Shown here piece by piece: positions 7,159 to 42,977 of a stretch of DNA of 64,000 nucleotides (position 1 is the first letter of the stretch; the number at the start of each line of letters is the position of its first letter). Under the pieces are notes generated by a model, which was not told where the DNA came from, did not search any database, and saw only the letters and a list, made by a program, of their open reading frames with translations. Origin of the DNA: Lachnospiraceae bacterium (lineage in GTDB: Bacteria; Bacillota; Clostridia; Lachnospirales; Lachnospiraceae); NCBI GenBank assembly GCA_017620255.1, contig JAFZQU010000001.1, positions 62,001 through 126,000 on the forward strand. The letters run 5' to 3'. A program made the translations under genes and the position numbers.

Positions 7159-10100
7159 ATGAGGAAACTGCATTTTGGCACAAAACGCATGCTGACAGGA
7201 CTTCTCGCTGCAGCGATGATCGTTACGGCTCTGCCGGGATATGCGTTTGCAGAGGAGATACAGGCGGATCCGGCAGGCGGATCCGTGGTTTATTCTGAAA
7301 CCGCGGAAGATGAGCTGATCGGAGAAGCGCCCGGGGAAGAGCCGGCAAAGGTGCCGGAAGCGGAACCGGCTGATGAAATTCTGCAGGAAGAAGTAGCCGG
7401 CGAAGAGATCATACCGGAAACCGAAGCTGTAGTTGGAACGGATGAGTTGGAAGAAACAGAAGAAGCAGAAGAAGCAGAAGAAGTGGAAGAAATGCTTGGC
7501 GCTCCCACCTATACCGTGGCGATCAGCGAGGATATGGAAAACGATCTGTATACCATCCTGCCGGCGTATGAGGATGCGCATATTGTGGAGCAGGATTCCG
7601 TGTATTATGTCGAAGAGAATGCGACTGAGATCCGGGTGGAACTTGAACTCGCGCCCTGTTACAGCCTGACCGCTTTTACGGCAAAGATCGGTGAGGCAGA
7701 GGCCAGAGTCGTGAATGTCGATTATGGACTTTATCAGATCACGGTTGATGAGCAGGGAACACCCATAAACGGGAATGTAACTTTTGGGATCACCCTGGAA
7801 CCCACCGTATACACGCTTACGTTTATTACCAACGGGGGAATAGAATCGCTGGGTATCGATGCAGAAGCGGAGAATGTCACGGATAACGGAGACGGTACGG
7901 TAACAGTTGCTGAAAGAGAAGAGCCTACACGGGTGAGGTTTGCCCCCAGTAGGCAGGAAGGTTACGAGATATTGGATGTTGATAGCCGCAACCTTTCGAA
8001 TGGGGTGTCGACGATAGAAAAAAATGAAGACGGGTCGTTTGACATACATGTAGACGGAGACCAGATCATCGGCATCCGCACCGAAGAACGCTATCCTTCT
8101 GATCCGAAGCGGGTCACCTTCCATGCTTCGGCAGGTGCAGATATTTATCCGTACAGACCGGTCCTGAAAACCAGGGACGGGATCCTCGCGTTAAAAGAAG
8201 ATTTTGCTTATGATGCGGTGACCGAAACGGAAGTGCAGAACGGAGATCTCTTTGAATTTCATGTAGATTATGATGAAGAGAATTATACAGTGGAAGTAAA
8301 ACAGGGAAGAACGGTACTTGATGCACAGCGGGATACTTACCGGAAAAATCCGTCGGCTACAGAAGAATGGAGTTCAAGTGCTTATTATGTAACACCTCCC
8401 GTTACATCGGATACGGAAATAACCGTTACACTCAAAGCAAAAACAGTCTCTGATCAGGCCGGGTTTATTCTGGACAATGCATCCCACGCAAAGTTCAGTA
8501 CGAAAAATGCAAAACTGACAGATACAAATATCGGGAAATACACGTTTAACAAGGGAACAAGTGATTTTACCTTTACCCTGACAGAGCCTGTTGCGTATAC
8601 CGTCGAGGCAGGTTTATGGCGCAATGACGGAGATGAATGGGTAAAAGAAGCGGTGCTTAACCTGACAGAGACGACGGACAGGACCTATGCCAACAGGATC
8701 CTGACCTATAAAGGGGCGGGCACACGATTCGAAGGAAAAAAACTGGTGATCGAGGAAAAAGACGCAGATCCGGTCCGACTGACCGTGAATTACGGAGAAG
8801 GCATCTGTAAACCGACTGTCAGCATAGCGGGAAGCTTTGTGGCGCCGGAAAGTGAGGGTACGACCTCTGCGGTCTATTCCGTTCCGCAGTATCAGACCGT
8901 GACTGTGAAAGCAGCCGCAGCAGCTGATAACTATAAACTGAGCGCGGTCACATACAACGATACACTGCAGCCGGCGGCTCTTAAAAGCGGTTCCTTCAAA
9001 TTTGTTGCCACAGCGGATTCCGTTGTTTCATACACTGCAGCGGGAATCCCCAGATGGCAGGTGAATGGTGTCTTCTATAACAACAAGGCTACGGCCCATA
9101 TTAATTCATTCCCGACAAATTATTATGCATCCGTAATTGCAGGAAGCAGGGAACTGCCGATACAGACCGTATCAGCCGTGATGAAAGGGAAGAAACTGGA
9201 CGGTTTTGCAACGATCAACGGGAACGGCATCCGGCTGGATCAGACAGGGGCAGCCACGATGGGGACCGATCCGGTCAAAGTCACTGTAACCGGTGAGTTC
9301 GGTACCATGGAGCTGAACTTCATCGTTGCACAGAATATCGATCCGGCCGCTCTCGGTATCAAAGGTTTTCAGGACGGAAAAGTCAAACAGATAAACGGTA
9401 CGACGGTGAGCTATCCTGTCACGCTGAACAAGGGCGCGGATCTGAACCGTCTGCAAACGGATTTTACCGGGCAATACGCTGACTATGTAAAGCTGGAAAC
9501 GGATGCGAAAGGCAATCCGGTGGTCGAGATAAGCGCCTTTCATGAGGTGCTGAGCAACCGGGGCGGGTCATATTCCGTGCTTGCGCCTAAAACATTCACC
9601 TTCCAGTTCAAGGACAAATACGGAGGACCGATCGGCAATGCGTTTACGGTCGAGACGGAGGCCGCAAAGCTTCCTGCACCCACGGCAACATTTGTATCGT
9701 CCACGGATATCGATATGACGCTGTCTCTGGGGGTGCCGAAAACCGTGCAGGGGTATAAGAATCTGTATTATTGTGTGATGGCGAATGCGGCAGACGTGCC
9801 GGAAGGTTCACCCATGAAGGACAATGCCGTTAAATATGTGCGTGCAGATCAGGCGGGTACAACCTGTACGGTCAAATTGACGAAGAACGAAAGCGCCGAT
9901 CTGGGTGATGGAACAGCACAGAAGTACGATGTCGGGGTATGTCTGCTTCAGGTGATAAATGATGATCCGGAACTCAGTGATGCGCAGAAGTTCGTGCCGG
10001 CCAACCTCGTGCAGGAGCAGACGGACGTTAAATGCAAGGTACTTAAGAATGTATCCACCAAAAACCAGAGTTATGAAACGAAGCTGAGCCTTAATAAGAA

Positions 10101-33262: not shown

Positions 33263-36200
33263 TCAGTTTCCAAGTCCCAGATCGTTCAGGAAATCCTCAT
33301 CTTCCCTGGCCTGGGATTCCTTTCTGGCCTGTTCCTTTTCTATTTCCTTTTCCAGTTCTTCTTTCGGCAGGGATGCGAGCATGGGTTCGTCACCGATCGC
33401 GGCATCCACTTTCGCCTTGTCCAGTTTACCGTCAAAAGCAAGTTTCAGGAGCGCATCGACCACATCAGGATCCAGCTGTGAGCCGCGGATGCGCTTGATC
33501 TCGTCGAGTACGACGGACAGATCCAACTGTTTGCGGTAAGGACGTGTGGAATACATGGCATCGAAGGTATCCGCGACAGCGATGATCCTTGCCACATCCG
33601 GGATCTCATCTCCCGAAAGATGGTTCGGATAGCCGCGCCCGTCGATCCGCTCGTGGTGGCAGCCTGCGCCGACCGCCAGATTCTGCACGATCGTAACGTC
33701 TTTCAGCAGTTCTGCCCCGTTTGGCGCGTGCTGTTTCATCACTTCATATTCTTCATCATTTAAGCGTTCCGGTTTGTTTAAGATCACATCCGGAATGCTC
33801 AGTTTTCCGATATCGTGCAGGAGCGCGATGTTGTAGAATTCGTTGATCTGTTCCTTGGTGTAGCCGCGCTGCGACTTCAGTTCCTCCGCGAGCATCTTTG
33901 TATAGTAGGCCACGCGGAAACTGTGGCCGCGGTTCTGCGTATCACGCATATCGATGCACTTTGCGAAGGTATGCATGATCTGGCTGATGAACTTTTCATC
34001 TTCTTCCTGTTTCTTCTGGTAAGCTTCCGCGCGTTTCTGGAAGCGCTGCCAGATCACGGTCGTCAGGACAAAGACGGATACGACCATCAGCGCGATCCAG
34101 AACCCGACGTGTTCATAAGGGGAACTTTCCTTGGTGATCGTAATGGTCGCACTCTTATCCGTTTCCCCGGTCTTGGCGTTCAGTACATCCAGATGGAAGG
34201 TGTATGTGCCGCCGTCCAGGTTCGTATAGGAAATGACCGGCATTTCCTGTTTCGTCGTGCGGATCGGCTCCTGGTCAAAGCCCTGCAGATAGTAGCTGAT
34301 CCTGGGATTTGCGAGTCCGTAGGTCAGCACATAGGCGTTGATATCCAGACGTTTGCTGCCTGCCGGCAGGGAGACGGTGCCGTTTTCACCAACGAGCATT
34401 TTCTTTCCGTCCACCTCGACGGAAGGAATGGAGAGCATCAGCGCATCGTTTCTTAACGTATCGGAGTTGATGTTCACCATGCTGACACCCGTGGTGCCGG
34501 CGATATAGAGATTGCCGCGTTCGTCCACGCAGCTTCGCGAGTTGCCGGTCGCAACGTAGGGCAGTCCGCTTTTGGTGTTATAGAAGGAATAATCGATGCT
34601 CTGATTGGCGAGCAGCTGGTCCGCCTTGGTGATATAGACACCGTTTGAGGAAAGGATCCAGGCGTAACCGCGTTCATCGAAAAAGATATCATAGTTGTTG
34701 GAATACGGGAAATTCGTGATCGCCGTGAGATTGCCGTCTTTTAAGTATTCGATGGAATTGGAGGTGATGAGCCAGAAGACTTTGCGCTCCTCGTCCCATT
34801 TGATCCGCATGACCACTTCGCTGGTAAGGCCGTCGTCATAACCGATGCGGGTGACTTTGTTTCCGTCCACGATATAGATGCCGTCGCCGTCGCTGCCGAG
34901 GTAGAGCCGGCCGTCAGGCCCCTGTTCGACGGAGAGGATCTCGGTCGTGTTGATGCCGTGCTCATGTCCGTAGTGTGCGGTGACCGTGTTGTTCTCGATC
35001 AGATAGACGCCGTTTCCGGTCGCGGCGGCGATCGCACCGTTGCTGCACTGGATCACGTCGCGCACACGCGTTGAATCAAGGCCGTTATTCTCGTTAAAGC
35101 AGGTGATGGATCCGGACTCCGGATCATAGCAGACAAGGCCCAGATCCCCGTGTGTGGCAAGCCACAGGCGGCCGGTCGCATCTTTGATGATACAGCGGAT
35201 CCGGACGCCGTCCACATATTCGCACAGTTTATTGAAGATGAGATTGTTGGTCTTGGTGTTGACCACCTTTAAGCCGCTGTCGGTCCCAAGATACAGTTCC
35301 GCTCCGCTTAAGCAGGTGGTATTGATCACCATGGACTCTAAACCGATGAGGGAACTTAAGTCCGTGAAACGGTCCGGAACCAGCTTCAGCACGCCCTGTC
35401 TGGTGGAAGTGAACCACATGTTGCCCTCGTGGTCCGTCCGGATATGTCCGACGGAATTGTTCATCGGGATATCGTTCAGCTGCCGCAACTGTCCGTGTTC
35501 ATCGAAATATCCGAGACCGTTGGTGGCGCAGACCCATTTGAGTCCGTGCGCGATGATCATATCGGTGATATTTTTCAAAGGAGCCGTGGAACGGCGCGCA
35601 GTGATCTCGAGCGTGTTGTTCATGTTGGCCGTATAGATCTCGGAACCGGTGGTCCCCATGTAAACGATCCCGGGTTCCTTGGGATCGGGATAGAGGGAAT
35701 TGACCTGATAGTTACCGAAAGCATTGGAATCATAGAAAGCACTGATGCGCAGGTTCTCCACCGTAAACACGGCGCCGTCCAGCGTCAGGCCGTACACGTT
35801 CTTATAGTCATCCTTCTTCAGGGCAGTGATGTATTCGAGATTCACCTGCGGGTCGTCAATGACATGGATCGTCAGATCGTCTTTTTTGACATAGGCAAGG
35901 CCTTCTGTGGTGGCGATCAGGATATTGCCGTCCCTGTCCTCCACCATGTCACGGATCGAGTACGATTTCAGGCCTTCCACACGGCCGTACACATGGATCT
36001 CGCCGTGGTCATAATAGGCGATGCCGTTTTCGTTGGTGCCGATCCAGACGCGGTCCTTACTGTCCACATAGAGACTGAATACACTGGAGATGCCGGTGGA
36101 AGAGTCAAAACGCTGGAAATTGGTGCCGTCATACCGGATCAGGCCGCTGTAACCGCCGATCCAGATAAAGCCGTCCGCGCTCTGCACGATGGCATTGGCT

Positions 36201-36379
36201 TCGGAGGTCGGAAGTCCGTTGGACGAATCATAGAGGATTGCCGTATAGTCCGTACCGGTCCCGAAGATGTTCCGCTGCTGCCCGATGGCAGCATCCGCCC
36301 TGCAGGGCGAGATCACGAGGAGCGCTCCCAGTAAGAGAGACACCGTCATCAGTAAGTGTGCGATCTTTTTCCCAGCCAT
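33263..36379 (-). CDS. beta-propeller/Y_Y_Y transmembrane HD-GYP phosphodiesterase
   Basis: 1038 residues. A signal peptide or anchor (1-30) precedes an extracellular double beta-propeller of Reg_prop repeats (NAIVQSADGFIWIGGYSGLIRYDG and many similar units, about 40-650). A Y_Y_Y domain (about 655-755), a single membrane helix (760-781), a cytoplasmic HD-GYP domain (HDIGK near 855, HHERIDGRGYP near 910) and an acidic coiled tail follow. HD-GYP domains hydrolyse c-di-GMP. The sensory part is the one found in hybrid two-component systems for polysaccharides, here fused to a phosphodiesterase instead of a kinase. It heads the minus-strand group with the transporter and lipoprotein. Confidence 0.92.
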   Translation of the reverse strand: MAGKKIAHLLMTVSLLLGALLVISPCRADAAIGQQRNIFGTGTDYTAILYDSSNGLPTSEANAIVQSADGFIWIGGYSGLIRYDGTNFQRFDSSTGISSVFSLYVDSKDRVWIGTNENGIAYYDHGEIHVYGRVEGLKSYSIRDMVEDRDGNILIATTEGLAYVKKDDLTIHVIDDPQVNLEYITALKKDDYKNVYGLTLDGAVFTVENLRISAFYDSNAFGNYQVNSLYPDPKEPGIVYMGTTGSEIYTANMNNTLEITARRSTAPLKNITDMIIAHGLKWVCATNGLGYFDEHGQLRQLNDIPMNNSVGHIRTDHEGNMWFTSTRQGVLKLVPDRFTDLSSLIGLESMVINTTCLSGAELYLGTDSGLKVVNTKTNNLIFNKLCEYVDGVRIRCIIKDATGRLWLATHGDLGLVCYDPESGSITCFNENNGLDSTRVRDVIQCSNGAIAAATGNGVYLIENNTVTAHYGHEHGINTTEILSVEQGPDGRLYLGSDGDGIYIVDGNKVTRIGYDDGLTSEVVMRIKWDEERKVFWLITSNSIEYLKDGNLTAITNFPYSNNYDIFFDERGYAWILSSNGVYITKADQLLANQSIDYSFYNTKSGLPYVATGNSRSCVDERGNLYIAGTTGVSMVNINSDTLRNDALMLSIPSVEVDGKKMLVGENGTVSLPAGSKRLDINAYVLTYGLANPRISYYLQGFDQEPIRTTKQEMPVISYTNLDGGTYTFHLDVLNAKTGETDKSATITITKESSPYEHVGFWIALMVVSVFVLTTVIWQRFQKRAEAYQKKQEEDEKFISQIMHTFAKCIDMRDTQNRGHSFRVAYYTKMLAEELKSQRGYTKEQINEFYNIALLHDIGKLSIPDVILNKPERLNDEEYEVMKQHAPNGAELLKDVTIVQNLAVGAGCHHERIDGRGYPNHLSGDEIPDVARIIAVADTFDAMYSTRPYRKQLDLSVVLDEIKRIRGSQLDPDVVDALLKLAFDGKLDKAKVDAAIGDEPMLASLPKEELEKEIEKEQARKESQAREDEDFLNDLGLGN

Positions 36380-36559: not shown

Positions 36560-36729
36560 ACTACGTGTGAAAAGCCGGTAAAGAGGAAATTCACACGTAG
36601 TGTCGAGGAAAAAACAGGAAATGACTACGTGTAAAATCAACGATATGGGGAGTTTTACACGTAGCCGGTTAAAAAACCGGGCAAAATACTACGTGTAAAA
36701 ATGCAAGAAAGCATGATCATACACGTAGT
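36560..36729. repeat. array of three inverted repeats, 64-bp period
   Basis: Three 42-bp dyads start at 36560, 36624 and 36688, exactly 64 bp apart, with 22-bp spacers. Unit 1 pairs ACTACGTGTGAA with TTCACACGTAGT. Unit 2 pairs CTACGTGTAAAA with TTTTACACGTAG. Unit 3 pairs ACTACGTGTA with TACACGTAGT and has an inner ATGC/GCAT hairpin. Arms are conserved, while loops (18, 16 and 22 nt) differ. Compensating changes keep the pairing (GTGA/TCAC in unit 1, GTAA/TTAC in unit 2). Confidence 0.9.
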
Positions 36730-36847: not shown

Positions 36848-36862
36848 AGGATCCGAAAGGGA

Positions 36863-36907
36863 GCGCCCGAAACAATGAGCCCGTGAGCTTATCGTTCGGG
36901 TGTTTTT
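36863..36907 (+). terminator. leader terminator or attenuator
   Basis: GCGCCCGAA pairs with TTCGGGTGT (with G-U pairs). After a small internal loop, TGAGC-type bases pair with GCTTA around CCGTGA, and TGTTTTTG follows. No gene lies upstream on this strand, so it would end a very short RNA or attenuate the 37029 gene. Confidence 0.7.
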
Positions 36908-37028
36908 GATTTGGTTGATCGCAGTTTTTGAGGGGAAAAACCGGGTCCTTTGGCAACTGACAGATAGAACGTGTTTTTGAACGGGATCGTTCGTGCAAAT
37001 TCCAGGATCATACGGATGGAGGTAGAAA

Positions 37029-40000
37029 ATGAAAAAAAGAATCGGGAACTCTTGGAACAAGCGCATACTTGCAGTGGTACTGGCAACAGCTATTCTGGCT
37101 GCATGCATGCCGGCAACCGCATTGGCGGAGCAGGAAAACAGTATGGAAGCCGTTCCGGAAACCGGTGCGGAAATCCTGCAGGAGGAGGGAGCAGAGATAA
37201 CGGAGCAGGAAGAGCGGGCGGATGTGCCTGAAGAAACTGCATACGAAACTGCAGATGAAACCATCGATGAAACGGCAGATGAAGCTGTCGAAGAGACCAC
37301 TGAGGACCGGGACTTCCCCGGATCAGCCGACTATGAGACCGCAGAAAGATTGGGTGACCCGATCATATTGAATCCGGTTGCTGACCCTGAGCCGGCGCTC
37401 CAGGAAGGATACGGCATTCTGACGAAGGGTATGGGTACAGGCGAATACCAGTGGCTGTATTTTGGATACAGGCCGGGGGCGTTTGGTTCCGTTTCGGACG
37501 GATATATCAAGTGGGGAGTAGCCGACACCCGTTATAATTCCGGATTCGGCGCTCTTAATGGGCTAATACTGCTTAGCATGAACTCTTTTGGTCAGGTAAA
37601 ATTTCAGGCTGACGAGAGCGTGGATTTGCTTCGGAGAAGTGAGTATGATATATCGACATTAAAGGCACATCTTGATTCTTTGGAATATGAAGGAGAGAAC
37701 GCGATCGTTACGGCCGGGGAGCAGTCGGCGCTGAATCTCAGAGAATTAAGAGGAGGCGGACCTTATTATACTACGGACGACCATATAGACTACCGTATTA
37801 AAGGGGATGATGCACGCGCCAGGTTCTGGGCGCCTACGATTACGGATGTGTATGATATCATAGGTAAAAATATGCAAGGGGTCATTTGTCTGGGGACCTT
37901 ATTAAGTACACCCGGGATCAAAAAATTATACTCTGACCCGTTTCCGCCGGAGGCCTGTGTCGTATATGTGGATGTGATGTGGAATACGGAAAGCCAACAG
38001 TATGAATGGCGCATTAAAAGCAATTGTCCCGCTGACAAGGCTTATCCGAACCATGCCCTGTGTCAGCTGAATTTTGATAAGATCCTTTTTACCAGTTCTG
38101 CCGAGAACGGAAAACTTTCCCAAACTACCGGCCCCGGTGCGTTAGATGCTGTTGGCATGAATAGGACCAAGGAGTGGAAGGTCACGCTTCTTGCCGAACA
38201 TGACGGATTTGGGGTCGACCCGTGCCGTGTCCGCTATTCTGCGCAGACGATGACGGCTGAGATTCCCTTTACGGGAGCAAAAGTAGAAGAGAACGGATAT
38301 ATTTCCGCCATCATCAAGGATGCAGACGGAAAGATCAAGTACTACGGAAGGATCCTGGAAGTGACAGAGCCTAACGGTACTGCAACGGTTGCGCTTTCCG
38401 GGAAAATGACAGATACGGATAAGCTATATATCTTTAATGAGCAGTGTAACGGCGATAAGCTGACAGATTATGCGTCCGGTCTGAAAGAGATCCCGATCGT
38501 GCCGGGTGAGGATCTGGACGGTCTCCATGCGCTCACTCATGTGGACAGGGTCGATCCGACACCGATCACAGAAGGAAAAGAAGAGTATTGGGTCTGTGAT
38601 GAGTGCGGAAAAAAATTCTCCGATGAAGAAGGCCTGAATGAGATCCGCGAACCGGCTATACTCCCACGTACGCTGGAAGCGACACCGTCGGCACTTGATT
38701 TTGGCGCCATGACGGAAGGATACGTGCCGGAAACAAAGACGATCACACTGAAAAATAACGGAACAAAGAATATCACATTCACGCAACCGGACGCTGAACT
38801 GTTTACGATCGGCAGTCTTTCCAAAATGACGATCGGACCCGATGAAACAGTAGGTTTTACGGTAACTCCCAAGACGTTAAAACCCGTGGGCAGATATGAG
38901 GAGCAACTCCGTATATCCTGCAGTGAAGGTAGCGGAAATTATACGACGGAACTGAATCTGAAATTCAGGGTGATCGAGAATAATACAGTCGTCACCGGGT
39001 ATACAAGGGTTGCCTCAACGCATACCGGCTGTAACAATAATGAAAATGAAGACAAGATGATAGACGGAGACAGGACGACCAAGTTCTGCGGAACTCTTTC
39101 GAAAGGGGCAAACAGTGTATTCCAGGATAACAGGAAGCCTGTGATCTATTTGGATTTCAGGACGGAAAAGCCTGTTATACCAAAGGGCTATATCCTGACA
39201 ACGGGAAATGATACGAAAGAAAATCCGGAACGGAATCCTTTATATTGGGAAATCTATGCAAGCAAGGTCGACGGTCCCCCCTGGACACGCCTTACAAAGG
39301 TTACGGATGGTGGGAATCTGCCGGAAGAAAATACAACAGATTGTACATTCCTGCTGGATAACGATGACGACAGAGCATATAAATACTTCCATTTTGAGAT
39401 CTGGGGTCACAGGCAGTCACGGGAAGATCTCATACAGCTTTCCGAAATACAGCTATTGGGCTTCGAAGGCAGAGTGGTCACTTTCGATGCCAACGGCGGT
39501 ACGCTGAAAGAGAAAAGTGCATTTACCGGCGAAGGGAAGAAACTGGACATCTTACCGGTACCGTCGCACCCCCAAAAGAATTTTGCGGGCTGGTTCACTG
39601 CTAAAACGGGTGGAGAACCGGTCACGACAGATACGGTATTTCCGGTTGATACGACGATCTATGCACATTGGGAAGATGCGGCAAATATAGCGATCAGTCC
39701 GGAATTGCTTGATTTTTCCTATCTGACACCGGGGTATGAAACTGCACCGGAAGCGCAGATGATCACTGTCACCAATAAAGGGAAAAGCTCCATCGCGCTT
39801 GCAATGCCTGAATCTGAAGCATATGACATCCAAACGGAGAATAACCTGACAAATGTGGCACCGGGAAGCAGCGTGAGATTCAGTGTCAGACCCCTTACGG
39901 GACTGCCGGCGGGAGAGTATAACGAAACCCTGAAGATCAGTACAACCGGCAGGCTGACGGTTGATACGGTGGAAGCCGATCTGTGCTTCAGGGTGGGGTA

Positions 40001-42809
40001 TTTCCTGAGCGGTAATGTGGAAGCCGGTGATCTGACCGACAATGCCACATATGTCATGACCGGTAATACGATCTTGCATGTCGGAGAAGATGCCGACAAG
40101 ACGCTCCGAAAGATCACGTGGGAACAGGGAAAAACCTGCAGTCTGATGATCATAGGAGAAGCATCCGGCAAACTGACCGTGACAGATGGCATTTCGGCAC
40201 CTGATCCGCAAGAGGCGCTAAACACGGTCACGATCTGCGGCGGCGAAGTGAACCTGGGATCAAAGCTTGATCCGGGCGGAGATGTCAGGATCGAAGGAGG
40301 AAATATCACATCTAAGACCATACGGAGCCGGAACGGAAATATCACCGTAACAGGCGGTACGATCAGCGTTCAATGCAAATCCCTGGATCGTGCCATGTGG
40401 GCAGCAGGTACCATAGCGATCACCGGTGGTGATTCGCATCTGTCAACGAGCGGTATCGGTAATTTTGTGGCAAATTCTGCCGTAAAAGCTACAGATGTAG
40501 TTTTGGGCGGTGAAGCGGTTCTGTATATCGCCGGCAAGCTTGAAGCGGTCGAGCTGGATAGCTATGATGGGCATTCCATTTCGATCGCAGACAGCCTGAA
40601 TGTGATCACACCGGAAGGCGGTCATGTGGCAGAAACCGATACAAATGCCGGTCACATTGTGGACGACAAGGGAAACAGGGCAAAGACCGTACGCATTTAC
40701 CCGAAGGTTCTTTTTGCAACACCTGCAAAGGTTGATTTTGGCGCAGCATCCGATACGATCCCTGAGGAAAGGATCGTGACGGTCATCAACAGGGATGCAG
40801 AAGCGGTAGAACTTGAGCCTGTTGTGTCCGAATATTTTACGATCGGCGCATTCTCGAAGACGACACTTGGGAGCGGGCAGAGTGCAACTTTTACGATCGT
40901 ACCGGATGAGACCAAAACGGCGGAACCCGGGCAGTATAGGGAAACGCTGAAGCTCACGACGGATCGTGGGGATGTATATACGAACATCGAAGTATCGTAT
41001 CTGAAAGGGGATGCCGGGGATCAGATCTGGGTTGCAAAAGTGGATCCCTACACGTATACCGGAAGCGAGATCCGTCCGGTTCCGGAAGTATATTATCACG
41101 GAAAGAAACTGACGGCATCCGACTACAGCATCAAGTATTCCGGAAACGTCAACGTGGCAAGGGATAAGAACGGAGAAGTCATTGAAGGAGCCAGGATCAC
41201 CGTTACCGGAAAAGGAGATTTTTCGGGCAAGACTACCGTAACGTTTGGGATCCTTCCTTTCAGTCTCGGGACCGGAACACGCACGCCGGCAGCAGGGATC
41301 AGCGTCGGTGCACTCAGCATTGTATCTAGCAGCAAGGCTGTGCCTGTCATTACATACGGCAGTTATAAACTCGGCACGAGGGACTATGCGGTCGCGGATG
41401 CAAATAAGAAATATCTCTCAGACGGCGAGATGCTCGTGACAGGTAAGGGGAATTTCACAGGCTCGGTCCTGATCCCCGTACATGTGGTCGCAAATAAAAA
41501 AGACGTGAAAACGTTCAAGGTCGCAGCGGATACGAAGACACCGATCGTGTATGATCCGGCAAGGTCGGAAGATGATATGAGGCAACTTCTGGCATCGCGT
41601 ATCAAAGTGTATGATTCTGCGGATAAGAAGAAAGAACATCCGCTTGATGCAGGCTTTATGATCACCTATCCTTCCGGTCTGACAGATGCCGGAGTGAAGA
41701 CCGTGCAGGTGATCGGGACAGGCGAATACACCGGGACGGTCACGCAGAAACTGACCGTGAAGCCGCTTGCAGTCAAGACGGTGGCGGATGGTTTGATCAC
41801 GACCAATGCGGCAGATGTCAAAGCATCGGATGCCTATTTCTTTGATCCGGCAGGCGTGAGCGTCGGAGGAAATCTTACCGTTTCCTATACGCCAAATGGC
41901 GCAGCACTTCCTGTTTCCACGCTGAAAGAGGGACGGGATTATACGATCGCATACAAGGACAACAAGGCCGCAAGTACGGATACGAAGAAAGCAACTTACA
42001 CGATCAACTTCATCGGGAACTACAAGGGCACGCCGGCGATCAAAAATGACAAGAGAAACGGTGTGGAAGACTATATGTTCACGATCCGGCCGGTTAAGAT
42101 CGAAAAGGATCAGAATATGCCGGCAGATCATGTGAAGGTCACCCTGAGAGATCTGGCATATAATAATAAACCGGATCTGTATGCGTCCACAGTTTATGTG
42201 GAAGCAAACGGTGTGCTGCTTGGCTCGAAGGATTGCACGGTCAGATACTTTAAGGACAGGTATTACACAGAAGAGATCACAAAAAGGAACAAACTGGAGA
42301 TCCCGGCTTATCAGGATTATGCGGATGTTTATGTAGTGATCACGGGCAAAGGAAATTACGAGGGTGTCATTCACCGGGATTACAGAGTGTATAGGACGAA
42401 TGACCAGGTTCTGGATATCAGCAAAGCAAGGGTGACGATCTACGGACCGGACTATGATCCTGCGAGCACAAAAAATAAGAAACTGACCGGCGTTCCCTAC
42501 ACCGGAGAACCGATCACGTTAAATACCCTGAACAATAATACACAAACGACAGGAAGGGTTGTGGTGGAATACAAACTGGACGGGAACAACTATACGGAAC
42601 TGGTACCGGGGACGGATTTTTATCTTTCCTATGTCAACAATACCCATAAGGGGAAAGCAACCCTGATCATTGATGGTGTTAATCAGCTGTACACATATGA
42701 AGCGGGAAAATCACGGAAGTTTGTCGGAACCATGAAAGTGCAGTTTTCGATCGGAACAAAGAGTATTGCGGATCTGTGGGATGCATTTAAGAACCTGATC
42801 GTTCCATAA
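37029..42809 (+). CDS. giant multidomain surface protein
   Basis: 1926 residues. Signal peptide (MKKRIGNSWNKRILAVVLATAILAACMPATALA, cleaved before EQE), then an acidic Glu/Thr linker (to about 105) and an N-terminal module (about 115-330). A CxxC segment (EEYWVCDECGKKFSDEEG) is followed by three ASH/choice-of-anchor-like domains (about 549-648, 888-990, 1228-1327), an F5/8-type-C-like region (about 658-815) and one InlB/Listeria-Bacteroides repeat (about 817-883, VTFDANGGTL ... TTIYAHWED). From about 1331 onward there are MBG/YDG-like repeats (YTYTGSEIRPVPEVYYHGKKL...). No LPXTG anchor is visible. GGAGGT precedes the start. Probably a carbohydrate- or matrix-binding surface protein. Confidence 0.87.
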   Translation: MKKRIGNSWNKRILAVVLATAILAACMPATALAEQENSMEAVPETGAEILQEEGAEITEQEERADVPEETAYETADETIDETADEAVEETTEDRDFPGSADYETAERLGDPIILNPVADPEPALQEGYGILTKGMGTGEYQWLYFGYRPGAFGSVSDGYIKWGVADTRYNSGFGALNGLILLSMNSFGQVKFQADESVDLLRRSEYDISTLKAHLDSLEYEGENAIVTAGEQSALNLRELRGGGPYYTTDDHIDYRIKGDDARARFWAPTITDVYDIIGKNMQGVICLGTLLSTPGIKKLYSDPFPPEACVVYVDVMWNTESQQYEWRIKSNCPADKAYPNHALCQLNFDKILFTSSAENGKLSQTTGPGALDAVGMNRTKEWKVTLLAEHDGFGVDPCRVRYSAQTMTAEIPFTGAKVEENGYISAIIKDADGKIKYYGRILEVTEPNGTATVALSGKMTDTDKLYIFNEQCNGDKLTDYASGLKEIPIVPGEDLDGLHALTHVDRVDPTPITEGKEEYWVCDECGKKFSDEEGLNEIREPAILPRTLEATPSALDFGAMTEGYVPETKTITLKNNGTKNITFTQPDAELFTIGSLSKMTIGPDETVGFTVTPKTLKPVGRYEEQLRISCSEGSGNYTTELNLKFRVIENNTVVTGYTRVASTHTGCNNNENEDKMIDGDRTTKFCGTLSKGANSVFQDNRKPVIYLDFRTEKPVIPKGYILTTGNDTKENPERNPLYWEIYASKVDGPPWTRLTKVTDGGNLPEENTTDCTFLLDNDDDRAYKYFHFEIWGHRQSREDLIQLSEIQLLGFEGRVVTFDANGGTLKEKSAFTGEGKKLDILPVPSHPQKNFAGWFTAKTGGEPVTTDTVFPVDTTIYAHWEDAANIAISPELLDFSYLTPGYETAPEAQMITVTNKGKSSIALAMPESEAYDIQTENNLTNVAPGSSVRFSVRPLTGLPAGEYNETLKISTTGRLTVDTVEADLCFRVGYFLSGNVEAGDLTDNATYVMTGNTILHVGEDADKTLRKITWEQGKTCSLMIIGEASGKLTVTDGISAPDPQEALNTVTICGGEVNLGSKLDPGGDVRIEGGNITSKTIRSRNGNITVTGGTISVQCKSLDRAMWAAGTIAITGGDSHLSTSGIGNFVANSAVKATDVVLGGEAVLYIAGKLEAVELDSYDGHSISIADSLNVITPEGGHVAETDTNAGHIVDDKGNRAKTVRIYPKVLFATPAKVDFGAASDTIPEERIVTVINRDAEAVELEPVVSEYFTIGAFSKTTLGSGQSATFTIVPDETKTAEPGQYRETLKLTTDRGDVYTNIEVSYLKGDAGDQIWVAKVDPYTYTGSEIRPVPEVYYHGKKLTASDYSIKYSGNVNVARDKNGEVIEGARITVTGKGDFSGKTTVTFGILPFSLGTGTRTPAAGISVGALSIVSSSKAVPVITYGSYKLGTRDYAVADANKKYLSDGEMLVTGKGNFTGSVLIPVHVVANKKDVKTFKVAADTKTPIVYDPARSEDDMRQLLASRIKVYDSADKKKEHPLDAGFMITYPSGLTDAGVKTVQVIGTGEYTGTVTQKLTVKPLAVKTVADGLITTNAADVKASDAYFFDPAGVSVGGNLTVSYTPNGAALPVSTLKEGRDYTIAYKDNKAASTDTKKATYTINFIGNYKGTPAIKNDKRNGVEDYMFTIRPVKIEKDQNMPADHVKVTLRDLAYNNKPDLYASTVYVEANGVLLGSKDCTVRYFKDRYYTEEITKRNKLEIPAYQDYADVYVVITGKGNYEGVIHRDYRVYRTNDQVLDISKARVTIYGPDYDPASTKNKKLTGVPYTGEPITLNTLNNNTQTTGRVVVEYKLDGNNYTELVPGTDFYLSYVNNTHKGKATLIIDGVNQLYTYEAGKSRKFVGTMKVQFSIGTKSIADLWDAFKNLIVP

Positions 42810-42906
42810 ACAGAGGAATTGCTTTTTATGATTCGAACGCAGACGGTATCTAAATGAAGAACATGCTGTATAGATTAATAGCCGAGAGATTTTTTTTTGC
42901 AGGAAG

Positions 42907-42977
42907 CAGGGGAAGAGGGATTCGAACCCCCGTGAACGGTTTTGGAGACCGTCATACTGCCACTGTATGATTCCCCT
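42907..42977 (-). tRNA. tRNA-Trp (CCA anticodon)
   Basis: 71 nt, minus strand. Acceptor AGGGGAA pairs with TTCCCCT, the discriminator is G, and the CCA tail is not encoded. The D-arm is a short ATAC/GTAT stem with a 7-nt loop. The anticodon arm ACGGT-CTCCAAA-ACCGT gives anticodon CCA. The T-arm GGGGG-TTCGAAT-CCCTC has one G-U. The D-arm is compact and position 10 is A rather than the common G, but all four arms pair. Confidence 0.93.

Follow-up and report, generated by a model that had tools for sequence, protein, structure and literature searches.

The palindrome array in the window is probably one of 16 arrays scattered through the genome and belonging to a nuclease gene located elsewhere in it; judging from sequence, this nuclease would bind double-stranded DNA and possess its own phased sites. 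The window is the whole stretch of DNA that was analysed, 64,000 nucleotides from a Lachnospiraceae genome (G000; a 2.93-Mb assembly of 48 contigs, labelled C with a number). Sequence comparisons demonstrated a link between gene and array, arms that follow the nuclease lineage, spacing by full turns of the helix, conservation of the arms but not of the remaining positions and, in some genomes, scattered cognate arrays. Whether these elements amount to a new gene-plus-repeat class seems to us evenly balanced; in such a class, a solitary TnsA-fold nuclease would recognise its own helically phased dyad arrays, arms and protein would diverge together, several separate systems would coexist in a genome, and arrays would spread and then be selected as binding sites. 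No such gene-repeat link was found in the open-access library that we searched, subscription papers being outside its coverage.

The array in the window and its family in the genome

Three 42-bp inverted repeats starting at 36560, 36624 and 36688, in an exact 64-bp register and 22 bp apart, had been reported in the first-pass annotation, and we verified their places (Table 1). The units have the form CTACGTGT-N24-ACACGTAG, and the exact arm pair CTACGTGT...ACACGTAG (N18..28) has three occurrences in the window and none in 100 dinucleotide-preserving shuffles. Counted from the 8-bp arms, the inner segment and the gap both measure 24 bp, which places an arm every 32 bp, in alternating orientation. 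The outermost pair of unit 2 is broken by its terminal C. The array lies between two divergently transcribed genes, for a sensor and a giant repeat protein, just as the annotation described, and the start codon of the sensor gene is 181 bp away. Promoter-like matches around the array were about as numerous as in shuffles (2 versus 1.1). Rfam gave no match at the array and a single tRNA in the whole window. A tRNA-Trp gene is located at 42906-42977 on the minus strand, directly behind the gene for the 1926-aa protein. Between the array and that gene, at 36860-36910, a long stem-loop is followed by T-rich sequence (GCCCGAAACAATGAGCCCGTGAGCTTATCGTTCGGGT); it resembles a terminator by eye, although the scan that gave the promoter-like matches did not list it.

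Table 1. Positions of the array units, gaps and neighbouring genes in the window
Feature	Position	Strand	Description
Dyad unit 1	36560..36601	no strand	arms ACTACGTGT / ACACGTAGT
Gap 1-2	36602..36623		22 bp (24 bp between 8-bp arms); like second-last gap of some other G000 arrays (by eye)
Dyad unit 2	36624..36665	no strand	arms ACTACGTGT / ACACGTAGC
Gap 2-3	36666..36687		22 bp; type CCGG..AAAAA..GGGCA.AATA (by eye)
Dyad unit 3	36688..36729	no strand	arms ACTACGTGT / ACACGTAGT
Reg_prop + Y_Y_Y + HD_5 sensor protein (propeller + HD domain)	33263..36379	-	neighbour, outside the system
1926-aa protein with Listeria-Bacteroides repeat (Flg_new)	37029..42809	+	neighbour, outside the system

A scan of fetched stretches of G000 found 68 units at 17 places; a place has between 1 and 7, and the window has three. 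A pattern search returned 55 exact units, and a covariance model built from 14 units gave 134 strand matches, or about 67 units, when 150 of 648 first-look candidates were scored. Units measure 40 bp (52/68) or 39 bp (16/68), and the gap between units is 24 bp in 49 of 51 cases. According to the annotation, single scattered units with decayed arms would mark a passive repeat; the opposite was found, with multi-unit arrays in register at 16 of the 17 places and perfect arms in 55 of the 68 units; of 1088 arm bases, 13 are mismatched. The commonest base reaches 27-81% at positions in the interior of 40-bp units. By eye, several arrays have ordered, position-specific gaps and loops in common and therefore look like diverged copies of one multi-unit element; the last gap, of the type CCGGTC.GAAAAATGGGCAGAATA, recurs by eye on C3, on C11 (C11:38093), twice on C27 (C27:28025 and C27:113094) and, as gap 2-3, in the window.

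The annotation had also read compensated arm changes (GTGA/TCAC against GTAA/TTAC) as a sign of maintained pairing. This description holds for window units 1 and 2 but not genome-wide: in 52 G000 units of 40 bp, with independence as the expectation, the observed and expected numbers of Watson-Crick pairs in the seven columns inside the arms were 24/28.3, 30/30.6, 31/30.3, 25/24.2, 12/15.3, 16/13.7 and 8/13.9, with no excess of compensatory pairing. An RNA reading is weakened by this result.

Short ORFs, none above 87 aa, are the only exception to the intergenic position of the G000 arrays. Thirty proteins that flank 16 of the 17 arrays, among them an opp transporter, QueH/ArgS, HydF and TetR, have no common theme; an operator of c-di-GMP or surface genes was rejected on this ground, and the link to such genes drawn in the annotation was not supported. 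On C3, an array of 295 bp within about 490 bp of extra DNA splits the opp operon between permease and ATPase; this was the one site examined for absence of the array, and two relatives of the same genus (85-89% protein identity) have no more than 54 bp and no array there. Beside the opp array, a 15-bp tandem repeat (AATAGAACCAAACGG type) lies within the same extra stretch (L123, about 8150-8280). Thirteen of the 17 arrays fall on C25, C27 and C11, which make up 13% of the genome, a crowding for which we have no explanation. C25 has arrays at both contig ends. In the flanks of 15 arrays, neither target-site duplications nor flanking inverted repeats were detected. Transposon ends were rejected, since direct flank matches were no longer than those of mismatched pairs (5.8 versus 5.6) and inverted ones were shorter (5.3 versus 5.9).

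The nuclease gene and the arrays beside it

BLAST of 61 array-neighbour records from 14 other genomes revealed a recurring flank gene. Its G000 homologue (C11:41481-42281) is unannotated, is preceded by an array of its own that lies within 50 bp of the start codon, and encodes a product of about 270 aa with a C-terminal PD-(D/E)XK nuclease domain. The match to a TnsA-like fold and the acidic active-site columns (E in 58/58, D in 57/57 and EH in 57/57, with the P of PD in 56/57) indicate membership in the PD-(D/E)XK nucleases. The N-terminal part is predicted to form a helical hairpin that carries a three-stranded beta tip. For the tip, its strand order had suggested an AP2- or integrase-arm-like fold, which was discarded because the fold lists show only helical hairpins; the PDB comparison likewise gave helical-hairpin matches only, so that a DNA-reading role for this part is a guess.

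A search with five members found homologues in 20 of 30 chosen genomes, including two in G000, and a class-wide draw found them in 12 of 196 genomes, G000 among them. We tested the best 58 of 89 distinct homologue matches for arrays, defined as chains of five or more alternating 6-mer arms. A palindrome array was present at 35 of these 58 loci, and by this chain test 23 had none; of the 38 arrays, 32 lie upstream, some of them within about 20 bp of the start, and 6 downstream. Five of the first 30 loci were search seeds, which biases that part of the count; among the loci new in the class-wide search, 14 of 28 had an array. On shuffles, the longest chain was 4 (reached in 2 of 174), and 314 windows of same-genus relatives gave no array; among 98 loci, the test also returned two irregular, unphased chains (L043, L073). 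An 8-mer array finder found nothing in 284 kb of relatives, and a looser 7-mer finder made chance calls (4/40 unrelated loci, 2/61 same-genus pieces, 1/58 shuffles), so we relied on the chain test. In a genome without a homologue (G010), 1017 overlapping windows, which cover about one-eighth of it, contained no array, whatever the arm.

Among 529 windows of G000, nine had arrays with known arms, and three others held arrays of two further arm types at 53-64 bp steps, two of them CAGGGTG. The second G000 homologue, on C33 (L245), has CAGGGTG arms, and CAGGGTG/CACCCTG arrays with 53-64 bp steps stand at three other places in G000 (L124:1757-1995, L167:19116-19274 and L175:1370-1565). This gene and these arrays appear to form a second, separate nuclease/array system in G000. 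A third arm type, TACCTAC/GTAGGTA at 63-64 bp, was noticed at the end of L177 and at L178:42-210 (C11, about 19.9-20.2 kb), where it adjoins a CAGGGTG unit; neither G000 homologue has this arm.

Within 1.5 kb of the 58 homologue loci, no partner gene recurs, the largest neighbour cluster having five members in four genomes. Only 3 of the 55 gene loci scanned hold tRNA genes, and tRNA targets were rejected on this ground. Gene-array loci next to tRNA genes were seen at L226:2877-3384, L221:2582-3143 and L258:968-1042, with an Arg-His-Gln-Lys run at two of them and Pro at the third. Carriage by plasmids was dismissed because the plasmid records (three) match only part of the nuclease domain. Phage carriage was also dismissed, with three matches in phage records, one of them full-length at 31% (MT839528.1, unannotated, no array found); no homologue was confirmed in IMG/VR.

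The arms beside the gene belong to many families, including TACGTG, TACGCG, TACGGG, GCAATG, GGCAAT, TGTGCA, TTAGTG, TTGAGA, AAGTCA, TACTTA, ACCTAC, GTCCGT, AAACGC, GGAGGC, CGGCCT, TACCCC and GTATTC. On the protein tree, the TACG arm label requires 5 changes compared with a shuffled mean of 11.1, and none of 500 shuffles was as low, although the seeds of the search had been selected for this arm and near copies contribute to the clustering. In G052, GCAATG units of its gene occur at 11 places (41 units, 72-73 bp, plus one lone match), one of which adjoins the gene; G058 has a scattered array with TACGGG, its gene's own arm, and G051 contains both TACGTG and GGCAAT types. TACGTGT arrays for which no cognate gene was found are present in G052 and G057 (in each, the only homologue has other arms), in G055 (arms unclear), and in G059 and G060, where no homologue was found. 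G048 has TACGTGT arrays, and its best gene-side arm, TACGCG, is one base different. Several of these assemblies break at arrays, which by itself does not prove a missing gene. G085 and G227 keep gene and TACGTG array side by side, with one lone match elsewhere and no scattered copies, so spreading is not general.

These last two genomes are from close species (95.8% identical over one 3.8-kb locus). In their two gene-side arrays, one of which has an extra unit, the arms changed in 1 of 114 columns and the other array columns in 71 of 429 (Fisher p 5e-7); the arms are conserved while the rest of the array diverges. Neighbouring-unit segments are 68% identical on average (range 20 to 100%, with some arrays as low as 20-40%); they are therefore mostly tandem copies that diverge while the arms stay, and not separate spacers.

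The median periods of the 38 arrays are 52-54, 62-64, 73-75 and 83-85 bp, plus one of 57, within an overall range of 51-86 bp; the 57-bp median comes from an array alternating 53 and 62, and the 75 from an array of 65 and 86. Among trial periods from 8.5 to 13, the peak was at 10.5 bp (Rayleigh R 0.87, p 4e-13, offset 0.3 bp), and 30 distinct arm/period pairs gave R 0.84 (p 5e-10). To allow for the dependence between related arrays, a single value was picked by hand for each lineage (22 values); R was then 0.91 at 10.5 and 0.916 at 10.25, and none of 5000 random sets was as good. Within arrays or genomes, seven departures were seen, all of them jumps by 9 to 11 or 20.5 bp, and distances of 90 bp in L199 and 55 in L254 are off whole turns. 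The periods group around 5, 6, 7 or 8 turns of the helix. Proteins that bind side by side on one face of B-DNA need such phasing, and RNA hairpins have no reason for it.

Scanning 84,980 species genomes for the arm pattern yielded 98 stretches. The regular arrays among them came from ruminant-gut Lachnospiraceae or Clostridiales MAGs and one Treponema MAG, and the rest were mostly single matches. Start-to-start distances in 14 such genomes were mostly 53-54, 62-65, 73 and 85-86 bp, with single values of 43, 90 and 158. The annotation had suggested testing whether copies in related genomes keep the 64-bp period. Forty relatives, of which 24 belong to the same genus, lacked the arm pattern. The repeat class is one at which several rumen genome assemblies break. 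An ACCACG-arm array with 73/83 bp spacing was noticed in Lachnospiraceae RUI274 (L023:3989-4400), on the same contig as a TACGTGT array. In Anaerolineae Zod_Metabat.487 (L021 and L025), CTACGTGTCATTCCCG... palindromes with long stems occur on several contigs; they look like an unrelated repeat family with the arm in common by chance.

Explanations for the scattered arrays

We propose a putative mechanism for the nuclease and its arrays. The N-terminal part of a nuclease dimer would read the two arms of a dyad on double-stranded DNA, and neighbouring dimers would pack on one face of the helix, which would force periods of 5, 6, 7 or 8 turns. The array before the gene may control the gene and keep it close to its sites. 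By nicking or breaking DNA, the nuclease could lead repair to copy array DNA into other intergenic sites, where the scattered arrays may persist as live binding sites. The annotation had offered three options, of which a DNA array on one helix face and a mobile palindromic family are each likely part of the answer, and a structured RNA does poorly.

An autoregulated DNA-binding protein with a regulon is an unlikely alternative. The arrays would be operators, the gene-side array repressing the gene and the scattered ones recruiting other genes, and spreading would be ordinary duplication. The upstream position of most gene-side arrays (32/38, some almost at the start), the phasing, which suits cooperative operators, and the single gene-side TACGTG array of G085 and G227 agree with this explanation. 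However, the array neighbours have no theme, the opp operon is split by an array, and the invariant catalytic residues would be needless for a pure regulator. In its favour, none of the G000 arrays for which both neighbours could be seen stands between convergent genes, but some arrays in G047, G051 and G053 do. The crowding on three contigs, the intergenic positions and the selection on the arms could also point to chromosome-organising sites, anchors of a nucleoid or replication-fork system such as parS or matS. We consider this quite improbable, because arm families differ among relatives and several coexist per genome, and because G085 and G227 have a single array of the TACGTG arm. Origin-linked sites in particular were rejected: no array lies on C34, the dnaA contig, and no GC-skew switch was found on C25, C27, C11 or C40.

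An RNA system, in which hairpins transcribed from the arrays would undergo processing or serve the nuclease as guides or antitoxin, as in TIGR-Tas or type III toxin-antitoxin, is very improbable. Tandem repeats directly upstream of a small nuclease gene would fit such a system, and the RNA folds of the three window units, at -14 to -20 kcal/mol whichever strand is taken, each beat all 200 shuffles. However, compensatory pairing inside the arms is missing, helical-turn phasing is useless in RNA, promoter-like matches are at shuffle level, and neighbouring segments are mostly tandem copies, though their identity is low in some arrays. Neither a Nop domain match in the protein nor an Rfam match at the array was obtained; with no covariation either, a structured RNA was rejected. 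Hardly credible, finally, is an ordinary passive REP/MITE family moved by RAYT or recombination, with the nuclease as a chance neighbour. The arrays are indeed short tandem intergenic palindromes, lineage-specific and absent from the opp site of two relatives. However, PF01797 (Y1_Tnp, RAYT) had no match in G000, G045, G053 or G054, although 6 of the 10 genomes searched have one, and a RAYT-driven REP was rejected for G000 on this basis. Moreover, gene and array adjoin at half of the class-wide loci (14/28), and the arms follow the nuclease lineage and do not decay. Of these explanations, we prefer a nuclease with its own phased sites on double-stranded DNA.

Comparison with known systems

The PADLOC models PDC-S68 and HEAT_CxxC_PD-DEXK match the C-terminal nuclease domain, with E down to 2e-26. 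However, the PDC-S68 models extend over 1200 positions and match the nuclease only at their end, and the HEAT_CxxC_PD-DEXK match is confined to the nuclease part. Unlike PD-(D/E)XK nucleases of the TnsA (Tn7), Vsr or XisH type, the gene described here has no conserved adjoining partner, a different N-terminus and tandem dyad arrays; no TnsB/TnsC-type partner of a Tn7-like transposon recurs within 1.5 kb of the 58 loci. The nuclease fold differs from the toxin fold of type III toxin-antitoxin systems, in which ToxN is MazF-like.

A tandem array beside a small nuclease gene recalls TIGR-Tas and CRISPR. TIGR arrays consist of alternating short repeats with two variable segments (PMC12045711). The units here measure 51-86 bp, in contrast to a 36-nt TIGR unit with two spacers of about 9 nt, and the partner protein has no Nop domain match. 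The annotation had set CRISPR aside, and we agree: no cas family was present among the 30 flanking proteins scanned, and the variable segments, with their 68% average identity, are mostly diverged copies and not independent spacers.

The functionally closest known system is REP/RAYT, although its defining enzyme, tag and pairing features are not shared. REPs and BIMEs are short intergenic palindromes, both tandem and scattered, with a nuclease gene flanked by the same palindromes and several such genes per genome (PMC2817692, PMC3733652). Similarly, the gene here is flanked by its own repeat and the repeat is scattered in G000, G047, G051, G052 and others, but not in G085 and G227. In contrast to the HUH/Y1 enzyme of REP/RAYT, the enzyme here is of the PD-(D/E)XK type, G000 lacks Y1_Tnp, and the sites appear double-stranded and helix-phased. 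Most REPs are described as having a GTAG or CGTC tag at the palindrome foot (PMC3733652); TACGTGT arms end in GTAG, whereas GCAATG, TTAGTG, AAACGC and CAGGGTG arms have no such tag in the arm. REP pairing is kept by complementary changes (PMC2817692), unlike the G000 units, which have no excess of pairs. Some twenty or more natural, putative protein-site pairs with differing recognition sequences would make the specificity code of the new nuclease family directly testable. If our reading is correct, these arrays represent a second, independent way, after REP/RAYT, in which palindromic repeats obtain a dedicated enzyme in bacteria, one that uses double-stranded, helically phased sites.
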